Shown here piece by piece: positions 1,504 through 27,764 of a DNA stretch of 35,011 nt (position 1 is the first letter of the stretch; each line of letters begins with the position of its first letter). This DNA comes from a virus. Both the position numbers and the translations under genes were made by a program. Below the pieces are notes generated by a model that worked only from the letters and a program-made list of their open reading frames with translations, made no database searches and had not been told where the DNA came from. The stretch is from the IMG/VR virus record IMGVR_UViG_3300025771_000081, positions 1 through 35,011 of that record; one strand, 5' to 3'.

Positions 1504-3657
1504 ATGCCACTTAATTTAGCATCTCCTGGACTTGTAGTGAGAGAGGTTGATTTAACGATTGGTAGAGCAACGCCATCATCGGATAAAATCGGCGCAATCG
1601 TTTCACCATTTGTCAAGGGCCCTGTAGAATCACCAATTTTAGTTGAAAACGAAAACGATTTATTAGATAGTTTTGGAAAACCTCATGATGTTGATAAGAA
1701 CTATGAGCACTGGTTATCGGCAGCATCATACTTAGCATATGGTGGAGCATTAAGAGTTGTTAGATGTGATAATGCAGAACTTACCAATGGATTTGTCGGT
1801 AGTGCATCAAGTATAAAAATTAAGAGTCTTGAGCACTATACTGAACTTGGTTATAATGATAATACTATTCCCAATGTACAATTTGCTGCAAGAAATCCAG
1901 GATCATGGTCCAATGATATTAGAGTTGCAATTATTGATGGTAAAGCAGATCAAAGAGTCTATATTAGTGACACTACCAATATCACAGTTGGAATGGGTGT
2001 TACACAAGCAGTAGATGGAAGAGTCGCTGCAGGAGCTGGAACTACTACTCTACTTACTGGTTATTTGAGAGGGATTATTACTGAAGTCGATTCGGCATAT
2101 TTAGGAGTCAAAGTTCTTTCACATGTTCCAAATGGTGGAACAGAAACAGAACGTGACTACTCTCCAAATAGTGTTTATGAGTTTAAGTCATCTCAAAATA
2201 TTACTGTTCGCAATTCCGCATTAACTGGAATTGCTACTGAATCAGTAACATCTACTTTAGATTGGTTTGATCAGCAAACTATTACATTGAATGCATCATC
2301 AACAGTTAAATGGAATGCCTTATCAAATCGCCCAACTACCACTCAATATGCTGCTGCAAGAGGTTCTAGATTTGACGAACTTCATGTTGTCATTATTGAT
2401 GCACAGGGATCCATAACAGGAAATGCTGGAACAATTCTTGAGAAGCATTTAGGTTTGTCCAAGGGAACAGATGCTCAATATTCCGTAGGATCCACTTCAT
2501 ACTGGAGAAAATATCTTGCAAATTCTTCTAATTATGTGTTTGCTGGAACTTCTCCAACAGGTATTGTAACAACAGGATTTAGTTCTGGGTTTACCTTGGA
2601 AACTGATGTTGCATGGGATCAAGAAGTTTCTAATATTACTTTTGCTGGTGGTGGTGCAAATAATTACACCCTTGCAGGTGGAAAAAATTATGATGGTACA
2701 TCCACGTTAACAACTGGATCTTTACAGGCAACACTTGCAGATTTATCTTCTGGTTATGACTTATTTGAAAATACTGATAATTTTAAAGTTGATTTCTTAT
2801 TAATGGGTTCGGCAGGTTATGGGAAGGAAACTGCTCAAGCACTTGCCAATAAGTTAATTTCTGTCGCAGAATTGAGAAAAGATGCAATTGCATTTATCTC
2901 ACCATATAGAGGATCTGCAATTACAGACACTTCAGTTCAGTCTGAAGTTACTATAAGATCTGCAGCAGATATTACGACAAATGTAGTCTCTTTCTATTCT
3001 GCGGTAACTTCTTCTTCTTATGCGGTATTTGATAGTGGATACAAATACATGTACGATAGATTCTCAAATACATTCAGATATGTACCCCTGAATGGTGATA
3101 TTGCGGGAACCTGCGCAAGAAATGATATCAATAACTTCCCCTGGTATTCTCCAGCAGGTACTTCTAGAGGTGCGATCTTAAACGCAGTCAAACTTGCATA
3201 CAATCCATCCAAGGCCCAAAGAGATACTTTATATTCAAATAGAATTAATCCAGTTATCTTCTCACCTGGATCTGGCATTGTTCTCTTTGGAGATAAAACT
3301 GGATTTGCTAAGGCATCCGCATTTGATAGAGTTAACGTAAGAAGACTCTTCATCTATCTTGAAGAAGCTATTTCAAGAGCTGCAAAAGATCAACTTTTTG
3401 AATTTAATGATTCTTTAACTAGAACAAATTTTGTAAATACTATTGAACCATTCTTACGCGATGTTCAAGCTAAGAGAGGAATTTTTGATTATGTTGTAAT
3501 TTGTGATGAAACAAACAATACTGCTGCAGTGATTGATAATAATGAGTTTATTGCTGACATTTACATTAAACCCGCCAGATCGATTAACTTTATTGGACTA
3601 AACTTTGTGGCAACCAGAACTGGTGTTGCTTTTGAAGAAGTAATCGGTAATTTCTAA
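1504..3657 (+). CDS. 18: Contractile tail sheath protein gp18
   Basis: 717 residues against 659 in T4. It forms the contractile sheath around the tail tube. The N-terminus (MPLNLASPGLVVREVDLT) is typical of T4-like sheath proteins. The conserved C-terminal assembly domain includes FVNTIEPFLRDVQAKRG and ends with VATRTGVAFEEVIGNF. The middle is variable and rich in Ser, Thr, Gly and Asn, as expected of the exposed sheath domains. A clear ribosome site (GGAG at 1492-1495) lies 8 bases before the ATG, and a late box sits 34 bases upstream. The tail tube gene follows after 22 bases, matching the T4 order 17-18-19-20. Confidence 0.96.
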   Translation: MPLNLASPGLVVREVDLTIGRATPSSDKIGAIVSPFVKGPVESPILVENENDLLDSFGKPHDVDKNYEHWLSAASYLAYGGALRVVRCDNAELTNGFVGSASSIKIKSLEHYTELGYNDNTIPNVQFAARNPGSWSNDIRVAIIDGKADQRVYISDTTNITVGMGVTQAVDGRVAAGAGTTTLLTGYLRGIITEVDSAYLGVKVLSHVPNGGTETERDYSPNSVYEFKSSQNITVRNSALTGIATESVTSTLDWFDQQTITLNASSTVKWNALSNRPTTTQYAAARGSRFDELHVVIIDAQGSITGNAGTILEKHLGLSKGTDAQYSVGSTSYWRKYLANSSNYVFAGTSPTGIVTTGFSSGFTLETDVAWDQEVSNITFAGGGANNYTLAGGKNYDGTSTLTTGSLQATLADLSSGYDLFENTDNFKVDFLLMGSAGYGKETAQALANKLISVAELRKDAIAFISPYRGSAITDTSVQSEVTIRSAADITTNVVSFYSAVTSSSYAVFDSGYKYMYDRFSNTFRYVPLNGDIAGTCARNDINNFPWYSPAGTSRGAILNAVKLAYNPSKAQRDTLYSNRINPVIFSPGSGIVLFGDKTGFAKASAFDRVNVRRLFIYLEEAISRAAKDQLFEFNDSLTRTNFVNTIEPFLRDVQAKRGIFDYVVICDETNNTAAVIDNNEFIADIYIKPARSINFIGLNFVATRTGVAFEEVIGNF

Positions 3658-3679
3658 TTAACTAAGAGGTTCAAAAACT

Positions 3680-4270
3680 ATGGCAACCAGAAATCAATTA
3701 AATCCACCTCCTTTAAGAAAGATTACGGATTTCAAAAGTAAGTTAACCGGTGGTGGAGCAAGAAGTAATTTATTTGAAGTTGTTCTATCTTTTCCAGATA
3801 TAGCACAAGCAGATACTAATGTTCTTGACAAATCAAGATTTTTAGTGAAATCTGCGGCTCTTCCAGCATCGAATATAGCACCTTTAGATGTTGCATTTAG
3901 AGGTAGAGTCTTAAAAGTTGCTGGAGACAGAACTTTTGATAGTTGGACAGTCACCATCATCAATGATACTGATTTTGCTATTCGTTCAGCATTCGAAAAC
4001 TGGATGAATACTATTAATAGATTATCCGATAATACCGGTTCAACTGATCCTACATCGTATCAGGCAGATGCTTTTGTTTATCAGTTAGATCGTGATGGTA
4101 GTACTTTGAGAGCATATCATATGTATGATTTGTTCCCAACTTCAATCAGTCAAATCCCATTAGATTATGGTACAAGTACCATCCAAGAATTTACTGTAGA
4201 AATGCAAGTTCTTTGGTGGGAAGCGATTAAAGGTGATTCTGCTGCTGCTGGTGGACAGGACATCAATTAA
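3680..4270 (+). CDS. 19: Tail tube protein gp19
   Basis: 196 residues (T4 gp19: 163). Hexamers of this protein stack to form the inner tail tube through which DNA passes. The N-terminal stretch TGGGARSNLFEVVLSFP, the RGRVLKVAGDRTFDSWTVTI segment and the late FTVEMQVLWWE strand fit the T4-like tube fold. The C-terminal tail is low-complexity, with Ala and Gly residues. A ribosome site (AAGAGG at 3664-3669) precedes the start. No separate late promoter is seen, so it is probably co-transcribed with gp18. Position between sheath and portal supports the call. Confidence 0.93.
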   Translation: MATRNQLNPPPLRKITDFKSKLTGGGARSNLFEVVLSFPDIAQADTNVLDKSRFLVKSAALPASNIAPLDVAFRGRVLKVAGDRTFDSWTVTIINDTDFAIRSAFENWMNTINRLSDNTGSTDPTSYQADAFVYQLDRDGSTLRAYHMYDLFPTSISQIPLDYGTSTIQEFTVEMQVLWWEAIKGDSAAAGGQDIN

Positions 4271-6468: not shown

Positions 6469-7119
6469 ATGAAACTCATTACGGAAGAAGTATCAGAAGT
6501 TAAGTTTATTACCGAAGGAAACGGTAATTCTAAGAAAATGTTCATTGAAGGTATTTTTCTTCAAGGAAATATCTGCAATCGTAATGGAAGAATGTATCCA
6601 ATGGAAACACTCTCCCGCGAAGTACAAAGATACACAGAATCTTTTGTAAACAAAGGTCGTGCCCTTGGTGAACTTGGACACCCAGATGGACCAACTGTAA
6701 ATCTTGATCGAGTTTCACATAAAATTGTTTCTCTTACATGTGAAGGAAATAATTTTAGAGGTAAGGCACAACTTCTTGATACTCCAATGGGTAAGATCGC
6801 CCAATCATTAATTGGTGAGGGTGTTTGTCTTGGTGTTTCTTCTCGTGGTGTAGGTTCACTTAAAATGACTAATGAAGGTCATAAAGTTGTTGGTGAAGAT
6901 TTTATGTTAGCAACTGCTGCTGATATTGTTGCGGATCCTTCTGCACCTGATGCCTTTGTTCAGGGAATTATGGAAGGTAAAGAATGGGTTTGGGAAGGTG
7001 GAATTCTTAGAGAAAGACTAGCAGAATCAACAAAGCGTAGAATTAATACTTTAGTTGATGAAAGAACTCTTCAGGAAAATAAGGTTTTATTATTCCAAGA
7101 ATTTCTTTCAAATCTATAA
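6469..7119 (+). CDS. 21: Prohead maturation protease gp21
   Basis: 216 residues (T4: 212). It is the serine protease of the prohead core that cleaves scaffold and capsid proteins after Glu during head maturation and then itself. Visible family features: the N-terminal GIFLQGNICNRNGRMYP segment, the catalytic His in LGELGHPDGP (His71) and the nucleophile region LGVSSRGVG (Ser124/Ser125). These are arranged like the herpesvirus-assemblin-type fold of T4 gp21. A ribosome site (AAGGA) precedes the ATG. It follows gp67-like and precedes scaffold gp22, as in T4. Its probable cleavage motif occurs in the gp23 product downstream. Confidence 0.95.
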   Translation: MKLITEEVSEVKFITEGNGNSKKMFIEGIFLQGNICNRNGRMYPMETLSREVQRYTESFVNKGRALGELGHPDGPTVNLDRVSHKIVSLTCEGNNFRGKAQLLDTPMGKIAQSLIGEGVCLGVSSRGVGSLKMTNEGHKVVGEDFMLATAADIVADPSAPDAFVQGIMEGKEWVWEGGILRERLAESTKRRINTLVDERTLQENKVLLFQEFLSNL

Positions 7120-7121
7120 TT

Positions 7122-7129
7122 TATAAATA
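7122..7129 (+). promoter_or_regulatory. Consensus late promoter box upstream of gp22
   Basis: Perfect TATAAATA starting 3 bases after the gp21 stop and ending 31 bases before the gp22 ATG. A second overlapping AATAAATA occupies 7126-7133. Confidence 0.75.
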
Positions 7130-7159
7130 AATATAGATTATATACAGAAATCTAAACAA

Positions 7160-8299
7160 ATGTCCGTTGGTAGAAATTTACAAGAAATGGAAAACGTAGT
7201 AACCAAAGGCGCAAATCCTGCAGAACCAATGCAATCTGGAAATGCTTCTGGTGTAGCAACACCTGGGCAAACTGGTGCATGGGAAGACTTGGGTGGCCCT
7301 ACTCCAGATAACTATCGTCCAGATGACGATTCCGCAAAGATCAAAGATCCTGCAACAACTCTCGCTCAAGTGAAAAACGTTGTCAATGCAAAAGCAGATG
7401 CAGTTAAAGAAGAAGTTGCTGATGAAGACGAAGAAGTAATTTCTGAAGAAGATGATGATGTTGTTGAAGGTGGAGATGAAGATGTTGAAGAAGGTGGTGA
7501 TGAGGTAGATGGAGAAGGTGCTGAAGAAGAAGTAGGCGAAGAAGAAGAAGTAGTTGAAGAAGATTTCAACATCGATGAAGATGTTAATGCTCTTCTTGCT
7601 GGCGAAGAACTCTCTGAAGAGTTCCAAGAAAAAGCACGTACTATTTTTGAAACTGCAATTCGTTCAAAAGTTTCTGAAATTAAAGAAGAACTTCAGCAGA
7701 CTTACGAAAATGCACTTATCGAAGAAGTAGAATTTATTAAAGAAGCACTTACTGATCGTGTTGATACATACCTTGAGTATGTTGCAGATGAGTGGTTCCA
7801 AGAGAACGCTCTCTCTATTGAACACGGTCTTAAGACTGAAATGACGGAATCATTCCTTGCAGGAATGAAGAACCTTTTTGAAGATCATTATGTTTCAATC
7901 CCTGAAGATAGATATGATGTTATCGAGAGTATGGTAGATAAACTTGATGAAATGGAAGAAAAACTCAACGAGCAGCTCGAAAGAAATATTGCTCTTAATA
8001 GAAGATTAGCCGAGTCGGTTGCTGATGTAATCTTTGCAGATGTCACTGAGGGTCTCGCACTTTCTCAGAAGGACAAACTCGCTTCTCTTGCCGAAAATGT
8101 TGAGTTTGATAGTGAAGAGGACTATCGTGAGAAGCTGGTAACCTTGAGGGAATCATATTTCCCATCAAACGCTGGTACTCAAAGAAATGACTCTGAGACT
8201 TTATCTGAAGAAATGATTTCAGATACTGATTCTAATCAGTCAGTATCACCAATGATGGAGTCTTATCTTCAGACTCTTGGCAGAGTCGCTAAAAAGTGA
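7160..8299 (+). CDS. 22: Prohead scaffolding core protein gp22
   Basis: 379 residues (T4: 269). Main internal scaffold of the prohead, later digested by gp21. Residues ~80-145 form a very acidic Glu/Asp/Gly/Val-rich block. Residues ~150-330 are largely helical and charged with coiled-coil character (for example MVDKLDEMEEKLNEQLERNI), as expected of a scaffold. Position between protease and capsid genes is decisive. The ribosome site before 7160 is poor. An internal ATG at 7187 (MENVV) is an alternative start. The greater length than T4 is due to the N-terminal acidic domain. Confidence 0.92.
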   Translation: MSVGRNLQEMENVVTKGANPAEPMQSGNASGVATPGQTGAWEDLGGPTPDNYRPDDDSAKIKDPATTLAQVKNVVNAKADAVKEEVADEDEEVISEEDDDVVEGGDEDVEEGGDEVDGEGAEEEVGEEEEVVEEDFNIDEDVNALLAGEELSEEFQEKARTIFETAIRSKVSEIKEELQQTYENALIEEVEFIKEALTDRVDTYLEYVADEWFQENALSIEHGLKTEMTESFLAGMKNLFEDHYVSIPEDRYDVIESMVDKLDEMEEKLNEQLERNIALNRRLAESVADVIFADVTEGLALSQKDKLASLAENVEFDSEEDYREKLVTLRESYFPSNAGTQRNDSETLSEEMISDTDSNQSVSPMMESYLQTLGRVAKK

Positions 8300-23868: not shown

Positions 23869-24381
23869 ATGAACATTTTTGTGACTTCTCCCTGGCCAGC
23901 AGAAAGTGCCATTTGTCTCCCCGATAAACATATCGTGAAGATGCCCCTAGAATGCTGTCAAATGCTTTCTATTGTAGCATCAGAAAAGTGGGGACATAAC
24001 TATGGTCCATTACTCAAAGCAGATCATACTCCATACAAAACTGAGAAGGGAGCATTTCGCAATCATCCGTGTACCAAGTGGGCAATGGAAAGTATCCATA
24101 ATGCATATTGGTTGATTAAGCATGGATTGAACTTGTGTGATGAATACACTTTGCGGTATAATAAGACTCACTCCTGTTATAAGACTCTTGTGGATGCTTT
24201 TTATTTGTTTCCAAGGGGAAAGATTACAGAAGTAACTCCATTCGCTCGTGCTATGCCCGACGAATACAAACTTGATGGCAGCATTGATACATTTACTGCT
24301 TATAAAATGTATATTGCTTCCAAACCTTGGGTAGCAGACAATTATCTGCGTATTCCTGAGCGTAAACCTGATTGGATTTGA
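23869..24381 (+). CDS. Conserved phage protein, unknown function
   Basis: 170 residues from the ATG at 23869. A TTG 12 bases upstream is inside the previous gene. Notable segments: MNIFVTSPWPAESAICLPDK, HIVKMPLECCQML, NHPCTKWAMES, CDEYTLRYNKTHSCY and TPFARAMPDEYK. These conserved His, Cys, Lys, Glu and Arg residues look catalytic or metal-binding and recur in small proteins of many phages. I recall such proteins sometimes being labelled as pyrimidine-dimer glycosylase-like, but I cannot confirm that. Three bases separate it from gp44, so it is part of the clamp operon. GC content is higher than in the zincin gene. Confidence 0.75.
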   Translation: MNIFVTSPWPAESAICLPDKHIVKMPLECCQMLSIVASEKWGHNYGPLLKADHTPYKTEKGAFRNHPCTKWAMESIHNAYWLIKHGLNLCDEYTLRYNKTHSCYKTLVDAFYLFPRGKITEVTPFARAMPDEYKLDGSIDTFTAYKMYIASKPWVADNYLRIPERKPDWI

Positions 24382-24383
24382 TT

Positions 24384-25325
24384 ATGAGTGATTTTATTTG
24401 GGTTGAGAAATATCGCCCTAAGACTATTGAGGATTGTATTCTCCCAGAGACTACAAAACAAATGTTTCGGGAGTTTCTAAATAAAGGCGAAATTCCTAAT
24501 ATGCTTCTTGCTGGTCCTCCTGGTATTGGAAAGACCACAGTTGCTAAGGCACTATGTAATGAACTTGGAGCAGATGTATATGTCATCAATGGATCCGACG
24601 AGGGTAGATTCCTCGATACTGTCAGAAACAATGCGAAGAACTTCGCTTCGACCGTCTCACTTACTTCGGATTCTAAACACAAGGTCATCATCATTGATGA
24701 GGCAGATAACACGTCCAACGATGTTCAACTCCTCCTACGGGCGTTTATTGAGGAGTTTGCTGGGAACTGTCGATTCATCTTCACCTGTAACTATAAGAAT
24801 AAAATCCTTGAACCCCTGCACTCGCGATGTGCCGTTGTTGATTTCTCAATCAAAGGAAAAGAGCGACAGTCCATTGCTGCACAGTTCTTCAAGCGTCTCC
24901 AAGAAATCCTGGTTGCAGAAGGTGTTGAATCTGATAACAAGGTCCTGGTAGAACTTGTTAATAAGCACTTTCCAGACTGGCGTCGTGTTCTTAATGAGTG
25001 TCAACGATACTCTGTCAGTGGAAAGATTGATGCTGGTATTCTTGCTACGTTCTCTGATGTTGCCGTAAATGAACTTGTTAAAAACCTCAAGGAAAAAAAC
25101 TTTCCCGAAGTTCGGAAGTGGGTGGTATCTAATCTGGACAATGATACTACTGTATTGTTGCGCCGTATTTACGATGCTCTTTATCTATCCCTTGAAAACA
25201 ATAGTATTCCTGCTGCTGTGCTTGTGCTTGCTAAGTATCAGTATCAGGCGGCATTTGTAGCAGACCAAGAAATAAATATGCTTGCTTGTCTAACTGAACT
25301 TATGGTGGAGTGTAACTTTAAATGA
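24384..25325 (+). CDS. 44: Clamp loader large subunit gp44
   Basis: 313 residues from the ATG at 24384 (T4: 319). AAA+ ATPase that, as a tetramer with gp62, opens and loads the gp45 ring. Motifs: N-terminal WVEKYRPKTIEDCILP, Walker A GPPGIGKT (44-51), Walker B IIIDEAD (Asp105, Glu106), sensor 1 FTCNYKNKI and the SRC arginine finger (147-149). It shares an ATGA overlap with the next small gene. In T4, gp62 follows directly; here four genes lie between. Confidence 0.96.
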   Translation: MSDFIWVEKYRPKTIEDCILPETTKQMFREFLNKGEIPNMLLAGPPGIGKTTVAKALCNELGADVYVINGSDEGRFLDTVRNNAKNFASTVSLTSDSKHKVIIIDEADNTSNDVQLLLRAFIEEFAGNCRFIFTCNYKNKILEPLHSRCAVVDFSIKGKERQSIAAQFFKRLQEILVAEGVESDNKVLVELVNKHFPDWRRVLNECQRYSVSGKIDAGILATFSDVAVNELVKNLKEKNFPEVRKWVVSNLDNDTTVLLRRIYDALYLSLENNSIPAAVLVLAKYQYQAAFVADQEINMLACLTELMVECNFK

Positions 25326-25516
25326 AAAACAAAAGTCACCAGGTTAAGTCTAGGTTCTATTACATTTTTTGGGGAGTTGCTACTGTTTCGGTAGTGCTTG
25401 GGCAAATCTATGTTGGAACTGGATATCGTATGATGGCAGGAAGTTTCAACAAGTTCTTTTACACACTTACAGAGTTAATGGAGGAAGTGCCAAATGGGTC
25501 TATTGATTATCGATAA
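25322..25516 (+). CDS. Small single-pass membrane protein
   Basis: 64 residues. A short basic head (MKNKSHQVKSR) is followed by one membrane segment (FYYIFWGVATVSVVLGQIYV, residues 12-31) and an acidic C-terminal tail ending GSIDYR. The basic N-terminus suggests an N-in orientation. ATGA overlap with gp44 implies translational coupling. Its last 23 bases overlap the next gene. Role unknown; small membrane proteins of early phage operons often act on the host envelope or replication site, but nothing here proves that. Confidence 0.75.
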   Translation: MKNKSHQVKSRFYYIFWGVATVSVVLGQIYVGTGYRMMAGSFNKFFYTLTELMEEVPNGSIDYR

Positions 25517-25697
25517 AACTAAGTTGGTAGAACCACGAGTGAAGACTACACCTAAGAATGTGCAAGAGGCAAATGAAGGTCTTTTTCGTGCTAAGATGAC
25601 TTTACCTGCTGCCGCAAAACATTGTGGTATGACAAAGAAAGAAATGAAAATGACATTTCTTGAATATCTTAAATACCACAAACCAGAGTATACTTGA
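25494..25697 (+). CDS. Small helix-turn-helix-like protein
   Basis: 67 residues: MGLLIIDKTKLVEP, then NEGLFRAKMTLPAAAKHCGM and TKKEMKMTFLEYLKYHKPEY. The segment TLPAAAKHCGMTKKEMKMTFLEYL fits a helix-turn-helix (an alpha helix, a turn at CGMT, a second helix), so DNA binding is possible. A good ribosome site (GGAGGA, 25480-25485) lies 8 bases before the ATG, inside the membrane-protein gene. No function known. Confidence 0.7.
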   Translation: MGLLIIDKTKLVEPRVKTTPKNVQEANEGLFRAKMTLPAAAKHCGMTKKEMKMTFLEYLKYHKPEYT

Positions 25698-25715
25698 ATT
25701 ATCAACGATTTTATT

Positions 25716-26321
25716 ATGAATAAAATGAATGTATCCCGAAATGTCATTTCTGAAGATTACAAATTTGGTAGTAAGAGGAAAAAAAATTGGGAAGAATATT
25801 GTGAGACATCGTACCGTGAATTAAATTCTATTTTAGATCTCTGGCAAGATCCAAACTATAGTGCTAGACCTCTTACTAGAAGTTACTATATTAAAGTCTT
25901 TGATTGTTCCTTATGTAATTTTACTGGGTATGCAAGTGAGGAAGCATTAAAAAATAAGTTGAATGGGAAAAAAGTAGTTTACGATCACTGCCTTTCTCCT
26001 CAATTTGTTACTAGAATGATTTTGGATAATCCTGAAATTTATTTGAAAGATTATAATAATTTCAAACAGATTTTTTGGGATTGTTGTAGTACTATTATGG
26101 TAACACAGGAAGAAAATATTAGACTTTCTCGACTTACTGAGAATGATGGTTATTATTATAAAATTCATGTTCCAACACATTTAAAATATAACCACTTAGG
26201 AATTAATCTTTATTTTCGTCCAACGTTAAAAGGTAAATGGAAAGATGCTGTTCCATTGGAAACGAATATTATCGAAGTTCCCAAAAATTTGATTGAATAT
26301 GAAAAGTACTTTTTGGTTTAA
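25716..26321 (+). CDS. Hypothetical protein with possible HNH-like centre
   Basis: 201 residues, very AT-rich. The middle has a Cys pair (CSLC, 64-67), then KVVYDHCLSPQFVTRMIL (Asp90-His91) and VTQEENIRLSRL (Asn134). The order DH...P...EN faintly resembles an HNH nuclease with a zinc site, but the spacing is unusual and I cannot assign the family. The DruA-like gene starts 2 bases after its stop, so the two form a pair inserted between clamp-loader genes. Alternative start codons: ATG at 25716 or 25725. Confidence 0.7.
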   Translation: MNKMNVSRNVISEDYKFGSKRKKNWEEYCETSYRELNSILDLWQDPNYSARPLTRSYYIKVFDCSLCNFTGYASEEALKNKLNGKKVVYDHCLSPQFVTRMILDNPEIYLKDYNNFKQIFWDCCSTIMVTQEENIRLSRLTENDGYYYKIHVPTHLKYNHLGINLYFRPTLKGKWKDAVPLETNIIEVPKNLIEYEKYFLV

Positions 26322-26323
26322 TT

Positions 26324-27382
26324 ATGTTATCACCTGAAAATGCTGTTTGGGCAGCAAATCAATTTATTGATTATTATTCAAAGTTTAATCGAATTGACGA
26401 TTATTTGAGGTACGTAAAAAAAAGTAGAATTAATAATTCTGCTGGTAAATTATTTGGTCCTGAGGATGAAATTTTTTCAGATTTTTCTATAGATCCTAGA
26501 GATATGGTGTTTAGTATTCGTGAGGTTGATACTAGTACAAAACCAAAAACAAAATATAATCAAGAGTTGTATTCTGAAATTCTTAATATGACTGCTTCCA
26601 ACCCAATTGAAGAAGCAATTCCTGGAAGAACGATTAAGTGGATAATTACAGAAGACACTACTGATAAAATTGTTGGTGTAATTAGATTTGGTTCCCCAAC
26701 AATTAATTCAAAACCTAGAAATGATTATTTTGGTGAAGTTCTACCACTATCTAAAATTAATCATGAATTTGTAATGGGATTTAATATTGTCCCAGTACAA
26801 CCATTTGGATATAATTATCTTGGTGGAAAACTTCTTGCTCTTTTGGCATCATCCAATGAACTCAAACGACAATTTGATGCAAAGTATGGAACTAATCTTC
26901 AATACTTTGAAACTACTTCACTATACGGTACTACAAAAGGAGTATCCATGTATGATGGTCTTAAACCTTATGTCAGACATATAGGAGATACTGAAAGTAA
27001 TTTTCTTCCATTGTTTCATGATGATTATTTTCGTGAAATGTTTTGGTGGTTTAATAATAATGCTAATGGTGGAGAAAGACTTGTTTCTGCAGACAAATCA
27101 TCTAAAAAATTAAAAATTCAAACCAAGATGATTTCAATCATCATGAAGTCTCTTCAAGATGCTTCAAAGTTACATGAGTTTAAACAATGTATCACTCATG
27201 CTAAGTCTCTTACCGAGAAAAAACGTTATTATATTTCAAAATTTGGATATGAACCTGAAGAGGTTATTGGGTGGTGGAAAAGTAAAGCATCGAAAAGATA
27301 TGCAAAACTTAATAACGAAGACAGATTAAAAACAGAATTGGAGTTGTGGACATCTGATTCTGAACTAGAAATTATTAGATAA
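26324..27382 (+). CDS. DUF4338 / DruA-like protein
   Basis: 352 residues. The core (~105-225) resembles DUF4338, the domain of DruA in the Druantia anti-phage system: IVGVIRFGSPTI, PRNDYFG, FNIVPVQPFGYNYLGGKLLA, then FETTSLYGTTKGVSMYDGL and RHIGDTES. The N-terminal ~100 residues are specific; the C-terminal ~120 residues are helical and basic (SKASKRYAKLNNEDRL). It is more AT-rich than gp44 or regA and interrupts the gp44-gp62 order. Enzymatic activity of the domain is unknown to me. Family call is by motif memory. Confidence 0.7.
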   Translation: MLSPENAVWAANQFIDYYSKFNRIDDYLRYVKKSRINNSAGKLFGPEDEIFSDFSIDPRDMVFSIREVDTSTKPKTKYNQELYSEILNMTASNPIEEAIPGRTIKWIITEDTTDKIVGVIRFGSPTINSKPRNDYFGEVLPLSKINHEFVMGFNIVPVQPFGYNYLGGKLLALLASSNELKRQFDAKYGTNLQYFETTSLYGTTKGVSMYDGLKPYVRHIGDTESNFLPLFHDDYFREMFWWFNNNANGGERLVSADKSSKKLKIQTKMISIIMKSLQDASKLHEFKQCITHAKSLTEKKRYYISKFGYEPEEVIGWWKSKASKRYAKLNNEDRLKTELELWTSDSELEIIR

Positions 27383-27383
27383 T

Positions 27384-27764
27384 ATGGAATTAAAAGACTG
27401 GTTAAATTCTATCAATCAGACTAAACAAAATTTGATTGATGAAGATCCTTCATTAGAAAGAGAATATCCCTCTTACATTATTAACCGATGTTTTTCTGGA
27501 CATGTGGACTCTATTATGTTTTCAAATGAAATGAATAGATATCATTTTCTTTCTAAAAAGATGCAATATGATTTTTTTATAAATATTCTGAGGAAAAAGA
27601 AGAGGTTTTCTCCCTGGATCCGAAAAGATACAATCAAAGATCTTGATTATGTCAAACGATATTATGGTTATAGTAATGAAAAGGCAAAACAAGCTTTGAG
27701 AATTCTCACAAAAGAGCAACTAACATTTATTAAATCAAAATTTGAAACTGGAGGAACAAAATGA
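27384..27764 (+). CDS. 62: Clamp loader small subunit gp62
   Basis: 126 residues (T4: 187; shorter forms are usual in cyanophages). Non-ATPase subunit that completes the gp44/gp62 loader. The characteristic stretch YIINRCFSGHVDSIMFSNEMN is followed by KKMQYDFFINILRKKKRFSPW and YYGYSNEKAKQALRIL. It follows the DruA-like gene by one base and overlaps regA by 4 bases, as 62-regA do in T4. Very AT-rich, like the two genes upstream and unlike regA. Confidence 0.9.
   Translation: MELKDWLNSINQTKQNLIDEDPSLEREYPSYIINRCFSGHVDSIMFSNEMNRYHFLSKKMQYDFFINILRKKKRFSPWIRKDTIKDLDYVKRYYGYSNEKAKQALRILTKEQLTFIKSKFETGGTK

Follow-up and report, generated by a model that had tools for sequence, protein, structure and literature searches.

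Why should a gene related to DruA of the Druantia defence system lie, together with an orphan partner, between the two clamp-loader genes of a T4-like phage? The question arises from a 35-kb virus record (35,011 nucleotides, analysed at full length and called the window below) carrying the replication module of a T4-like cyanophage, a marine or freshwater virus, in the order gp45, denV-like, gp44, PHROG_2000 ORF, PHROG_1920 ORF, ORF A, DruA-like gene, gp62, regA, hsp20 and gp43 (Table 1). The names gp45, denV, hsp20 and gp43 were given by matching to annotated relatives; regA, downstream of gp62, is recognized by Pfam (PF01818, E=1.9e-44).

An earlier note on this DNA had described two AT-rich genes between gp44 and gp62, and the coordinates agree with the spacing it gave: ORF A ends 2 bases before the DruA-like gene, which in turn ends 1 base before gp62. 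Its account of composition and position stands with two qualifications. The pair is AT-rich (29.2% GC for ORF A and 30.8% for the DruA-like gene, against 41.4% for gp44 and 40.6% for regA), but because gp62 is equally AT-rich (28.3%), low GC does not distinguish the pair; and two further small conserved ORFs also lie in the interval. Elsewhere in the window, the ORF at 14673-16394 matches Rad50/SbcC (gp46-like), and its PADLOC hit to LmuB (4e-27) is probably due to cross-matching of Rad50-type ATPases.

Table 1. Features of the gp44-gp62 interval in the window
Feature	Coordinates	Strand	Remarks
gp44, clamp-loader large subunit, left flank	24372..25325	+	PHROG_168 E=2.7e-136; Pfam Gp44_lid
Small conserved ORF, PHROG_2000	25322..25516	+	E=9.7e-27; common to dam-bearing alleles
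Small conserved ORF, PHROG_1920	25494..25697	+	E=9.1e-29; in dam-bearing alleles too; last shared gene on left
Left junction of swapped cassette, end of PHROG_1920 ORF	25680..25715	+	identity to relative L203 stops at 25679
ORF A, 201 aa	25716..26321	+	orphan cyanophage family; putative accessory partner of the DruA-like gene
DruA-like gene, 352 aa	26324..27382	+	DUF4338/DruA family; predicted GNAT-fold acyltransferase
Most conserved stretch of DruA-like protein, residues 157-173, PVQPFGYNYLGGKLLAL	26792..26842	+	matches GNAT CoA-binding loop and helix by position
Right junction of swapped cassette at gp62 start codon	27382..27386	+	identity resumes at 27383, one base before gp62 ATG
gp62, clamp-loader small subunit, right flank	27384..27764	+	PHROG_225 E=4.4e-47; Pfam Phage_clamp_A 3.2e-7

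A DruA-family protein and an orphan partner

The earlier note had likened the second gene to DUF4338, and the profile search bears this out: residues 74-197 of its product match PF14236, the family of DruA in Druantia type I, with a score of 49.2 bits (cut-off 27) and E=5.5e-13, the PADLOC DruA profile is matched at E=4.4e-8, and PF14236 is matched by 76 of 76 aligned relatives. The match in the window protein spans only profile positions 56-178 of 297, whereas that of a relative from Pelagibacter phage Mosig EXVC030M, 25-27% identical to it, spans positions 60-296; only a phage family, PHROG_19197, gives a full-length match (E=2.2e-160). DruA-like proteins in Synechococcus phages have already been published, in six phages identified with Phold, the one shown being that of S-PRM1, whose predicted structural match to DruA has a TM-score of 0.73 at 12.7-17.1% identity (PMC12774648). 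Mosig EXVC030M and a second Pelagibacter phage, HTVC008M, carry DUF4338 proteins of the same DruA-like family, in HTVC008M as two copies (86143-87234 and 99538-100656, one of them directly after gp43); in neither phage do these genes occupy the gp44-gp62 slot or have ORF A with them. We found no established biochemical role for DruA.

All structures in this analysis are predictions. The AlphaFold2 model of the DruA-like protein, built on a 70-sequence alignment, has a pLDDT of 87.5, and nearly all of its best 50 matches in a PDB fold search are GNATs, a single one of which falls at E<0.001 (KKT23, 6.7e-4), with TM-scores by target length mostly of 0.35-0.59. The protein is thus predicted to be a GNAT acyltransferase, in agreement with the description of DUF4338 as a GNAT domain (PMC10853773). 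Within its most conserved stretch, P157, Q159, P160, G162, N164 and G167-L171 are invariant in 70 relatives, and residues 157-173 would form the CoA-binding loop and helix. The GNAT loop motif reads R/Q-x-x-G-x-G/A; the invariant Q159-P-F-G162-Y-N164 departs from it at the last position, which holds N and not G/A.

ORF A gives no significant family match in Pfam, PHROGs, NCBIfam or PADLOC and nothing significant in a PDB sequence search; its AlphaFold2 model (pLDDT 91) has no PDB fold match and finds only its own family in a BFVD fold search, and a pattern scan of about 85,000 genomes returned no cellular homologues. The earlier note had singled out a Cys pair and a DH...EN pattern as possible signs of a nuclease. 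The latter survives comparison and the former does not: The invariant residues are D90-H91-x3-P95-Q96, D104 and N134, with E133 nearly invariant and with D90, H91 and N134 holding across 56 relatives, while the second Cys is not conserved. In the model, H91 stands at the end of a strand, and N134, 43 residues away, in a helix that follows a strand, an arrangement that resembles HNH/His-Me nucleases. A nuclease is therefore a possible but unproven candidate reading of ORF A, for which Pfam, NCBIfam, PHROGs and PADLOC yielded no HNH profile match. Nor is ORF A similar to an HNH_3 gene found in the gp44-gp62 interval of DSL-LC03. A weak match to SegE (GIY-YIG) in seven members of the family was set aside, as it lies outside the conserved DH...N and fell below the cut-off in the member checked.

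Among isolates, ORF A occurs only with the DruA-like gene. A tblastn search of 50,697 phage records recovered the DruA-like gene in 31, ORF A in 17 and gp62 relatives in 932; all 17 ORF A records, representing 11 distinct isolates, fall within the 31, and whole-record profile searches found no isolate (0) with ORF A but without the DruA-like gene. The reverse does not hold, as ORF A is absent from 7 of the 16 profile-searched DruA-positive isolates. Its two principal homes are beside the DruA-like gene at gp44-gp62 (60 loci) and downstream of uvsW, a helicase gene (36 loci, in most cases no more than 125 bases away). The two genes sit side by side in three unrelated places, namely at gp44/gp62, near gp46/47 in S-B68 and downstream of gp43 in L374. 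The confinement of ORF A to DruA-positive isolates and the adjacency kept at separate sites point to a functional tie and argue against a free-living homing gene.

Several individual records deserve mention. Placement close after uvsW, mostly at 4-125 bases, is seen in L011, L012, L014, L015, L016 and about 30 viral contigs. Contig G008 (174 kb), a candidate for ORF A without a DruA-like gene, was rejected since it also lacks gp44 and is hence a fragment; only in L132 (6 kb) does ORF A lie at gp62 without a DruA-like gene in view, and there an ORF that looks by eye like a 2OG-Fe(II) oxygenase (1067-1618) precedes ORF A and gp62. S-T4 (NC_048049) contains ORF A twice with equal score, close to either end of the record (6996-7526 and 178565-179095), which may reflect a terminal repeat in the sequence as deposited. 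In L071 there are tandem DruA-like genes (1454-2584 and 2606-3994). Several of the DruA-like matches in MAGs adjoin replication genes of phages, as if phage contigs had been binned with cellular ones; L373 (Thermoplasmata MAG CP070751) and L374 (Thaumarchaeota MAG), both with phage replication genes and a DruA-like gene, are probably contamination of this sort.

The distribution bears directly on the suggestion, also made in the earlier note, of a homing-type module, in which ORF A would be a homing endonuclease inserted selfishly between gp44 and gp62 with a passenger gene. Homing endonucleases are common in T4-like phages, ORF A is found at several genomic sites, and DSL-LC03 has its HNH_3 gene in this interval; yet no isolate has ORF A alone, its homes at gp44/gp62 and just after uvsW are stable, and the alternative allele, as described below, is dam and not an empty site. 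We regard this explanation as very improbable.

The note had also suggested superinfection exclusion, and one may think more generally of a defence module that the phage took from Druantia and directs against its competitors. That DruA belongs to Druantia invites it, as does the rapid divergence of ORF A beside a conserved DruA-like protein (median amino-acid distance 0.44 vs. 0.16), which is reminiscent of an arms race. However, PADLOC found no Druantia protein besides DruA, and hence no DruB-DruE, among the 10 largest other ORFs in the left part of the window, itself a 35-kb fragment; and unlike Druantia type I, the window gene lies in the core replication operon of lytic phages, where it alternates with dam. 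Such a module seems to us quite unlikely, and nothing specific speaks for superinfection exclusion.

Allelic exchange with dam

In the isolates P-SSM2, Syn30, S-SKS1 and S-SCSM1, the gp44-gp62 slot holds a Dam-type adenine methyltransferase (PF02086) and no DruA-like gene. Comparison of the window with a close relative that bears dam (L203) reveals the nature of the difference: DNA identity is 84% up to position 25679 and 83% from 27383, and between these homologous flanks there is ORF A with the DruA-like gene here and dam in L203, a clean swap of cassettes. The same picture was obtained for seven further close pairs. On a quick clamp-loader tree built from gp44, gp62 and regA (113 rows), no fewer than 11-13 switches of occupant between Dam and DruA are needed; of 8 supported independent pairs, 6-7 show DruA changing in the direction opposite to Dam and none in the same direction (median p=0.03).

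To count occupants without regard to what the slot contains, contigs were chosen by gp62 alone, with two different gp62 seeds, and 96 had gp44 in view; genes were scored among stop-to-stop ORFs at phmmer E<=1e-4, the contigs being fragments. Seventy-two intervals contained dam, 14 the DruA-like gene (3 of them with ORF A), 10 neither and 0 both, as against 10.5 of 96 in which the two would be expected together (hypergeometric 8e-11, kinship ignored). No ORF A was seen beside dam in the slot. The avoidance extends beyond the slot: A Dam-family gene above the Pfam cut-off occurs in 1 of 25 DruA-positive whole records (S-SCSM2R, with dam elsewhere in the genome), and a DruA-like gene occurs in 0 of the 4 whole records of dam-slot isolates and in none of 16 dam-slot contigs, four of which are 171-211 kb long.

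With the DruA-like gene present in only 14 of 96 intervals, the pair is evidently not universal, and neither does it behave as a component of the loader, a finding that the earlier note had named as one that would refute its reading. Distances of the DruA-like protein correlate hardly at all with those of gp62 (0.18) or gp44 (0.15), both within the permutation range, although this is weak evidence since gp44 and gp62 themselves show a low value (0.12).

Single occupancy is partly mechanical, because homologous flanks exchange whatever lies between them, which by itself would make the occupants alternate; this is the main caution against reading function into the pattern. Room is not the limit, however: Dam-bearing gp44-gp62 intervals hold many other genes, even a second dam (L190, L235), and reach 4.7 kb. 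That two dam genes are tolerated in one interval, and that Dam is nearly absent elsewhere in DruA-positive genomes, argue, without proving it, that more than mechanics is involved. Of the ten intervals that lack both dam and the DruA-like gene, two contain a PD-(D/E)XK nuclease-like gene instead, which suggests that the slot attracts DNA-acting genes. PDDEXK_5 nuclease-like genes in neither-gene intervals were noted at L300:5214-5834, L316:5109-5747 and L184:2754-3380, and in DSL-LC03 a PDDEXK_5 gene lies between gp44 and gp62 together with the HNH_3 gene.

The same observations weigh on a different interpretation of the DruA-like protein, namely that its acylation target is a protein, be it host RNA polymerase, the phage replisome or a nuclease, that it serves takeover or anti-defence, and that it shares the slot with dam only because the interval is a hot spot for exchange of accessory genes. 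GNATs act mostly on proteins and small molecules, which favours this interpretation and counts against action on DNA, and the interval in relatives also holds metabolic genes, e.g., ferrochelatase and glutaredoxin. There is precedent in the phage GNAT Rac, which acetylates host RNA polymerase (PMC7824862). A mere hot spot accords poorly, on the other hand, with a dam gene that shares its interval with many genes, including another dam, and never with the DruA-like gene, and with how seldom Dam occurs elsewhere in DruA-positive genomes. We consider protein acylation unlikely.

A possible substitute for Dam methylation

The either/or occupancy of the slot suggests a role for the pair in marking or protecting the DNA of the virus itself. 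For a GNAT that repeatedly stands in for an adenine-methylating enzyme within a replication operon and tends not to occur alongside it, the simplest interpretation is that it is a DNA modifier with an equivalent job. Accordingly, of the functions that the earlier note had entertained, counter-defence fits best, in the specific form of an allelic substitute for Dam. We put the chances at about even that the DruA-like gene, with ORF A in an accessory part, constitutes a cassette for DNA modification (anti-restriction) and is a functional counterpart of dam.

Under this explanation, the pair would be one allele of a DNA-modification locus in the replication operon. The commoner allele would supply a Dam-type N6-adenine methyltransferase, and the alternative a GNAT acyltransferase of the DruA-like family, whose gene is often preceded directly by ORF A. 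Expressed together with polymerase and clamp loader, this acyltransferase might place an acyl-type group on phage DNA during replication, presumably at adenine N6 by analogy with Dam and with Mom of phage Mu, and the acyl mark would distinguish phage DNA or shield it from restriction by the host. ORF A would play an optional, accessory part, as an endonuclease that acts on DNA lacking the mark or as a factor that directs the modifier to its target.

The two alleles share their slot and flanks and exclude one another there, although their products are unrelated: Cyanophage Dam is a methyltransferase of the D12 type and the DruA-like protein a predicted GNAT. Another parallel is Mom, a phage-borne GNAT that acylates adenine at N6 and offers a precedent for acyl modification of this base (PMC7824862). 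Mom protects phage DNA by modifying adenine, and the DruA-like protein resembles it in being phage-borne and a GNAT by published assignment; in contrast to Mom, it has no detectable sequence or profile similarity (hhalign probability 0.3, and no match to the Mom family PF25680, which Mu Mom itself matches at 2.4e-75), and its action on DNA is our proposal. This lack of similarity to Mom counts against DNA modification, as does S-SCSM2R, which possesses both genes. Against a cassette that works as one rigid unit stand the uncorrelated distances of the DruA-like protein and ORF A (rho 0.11), which indicate that the partners also recombine, and the DruA-positive isolates without ORF A.

Palindrome usage lends DNA modification no support either. 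If the DruA-like enzyme shared the specificity of Dam, avoidance of GATC might be its sign, but we saw no clear difference in GATC avoidance between the two groups. Other palindromes did vary among gp45-gp43 loci: The observed/expected ratio of GGCC was 0.80 in DruA-only loci vs. 0.28-0.33 in the DruA+ORF A and Dam groups, and that of AGCT was 0.20 in DruA+ORF A loci vs. 0.35-0.46 in the other groups. These differences may be due to differences in hosts.

A special form of the DNA-modification explanation would make the cassette a phage restriction-modification pair: Phage DNA would be modified by the DruA-like protein, and ORF A, as an HNH-like nuclease, would destroy host or competitor DNA that lacks the modification. 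The invariant D90-H91 and N134 and nearly invariant E133, placed on a predicted strand...helix, and the restriction of ORF A, among isolates, to genomes with the DruA-like gene speak for such a pair, and in jumbo phages Mom is fused to, or stands next to, predicted nuclease domains or partners (PMC7824862). The absence of a nuclease family or fold match for ORF A, and the 7 of 16 DruA-positive isolates that manage without it, weigh against this form, which we deem unlikely.

A broader version goes further still: DruA and other DUF4338 proteins would be DNA-base acyltransferases, the cyanophage acyl mark would replace Dam methylation, and ORF A would represent a novel family of nucleases that recognize DNA without the mark. 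We offer this tentatively, as a possible but doubtful extension; if true, it would suggest what DruA does in Druantia.

In the open-access literature of PMC, we found no published account of the exchange between dam and the DruA-like gene or of the ORF A family and its tie to DruA, although priority is uncertain. From comparative genomics, the repeated replacement of Dam by a DruA-family GNAT at one operon position gives a clue that proteins of the DruA family act on DNA. Because isolated phages of both alleles exist (DruA-positive, S-PRM1, S-CAM9, S-SM2 and S-T4; with dam, Syn30 and P-SSM2), this idea is directly testable. If it is true, T4-like cyanophages carry alternative self-marking systems that are swapped between close relatives, and these would bear on host range and restriction in aquatic cyanobacteria.
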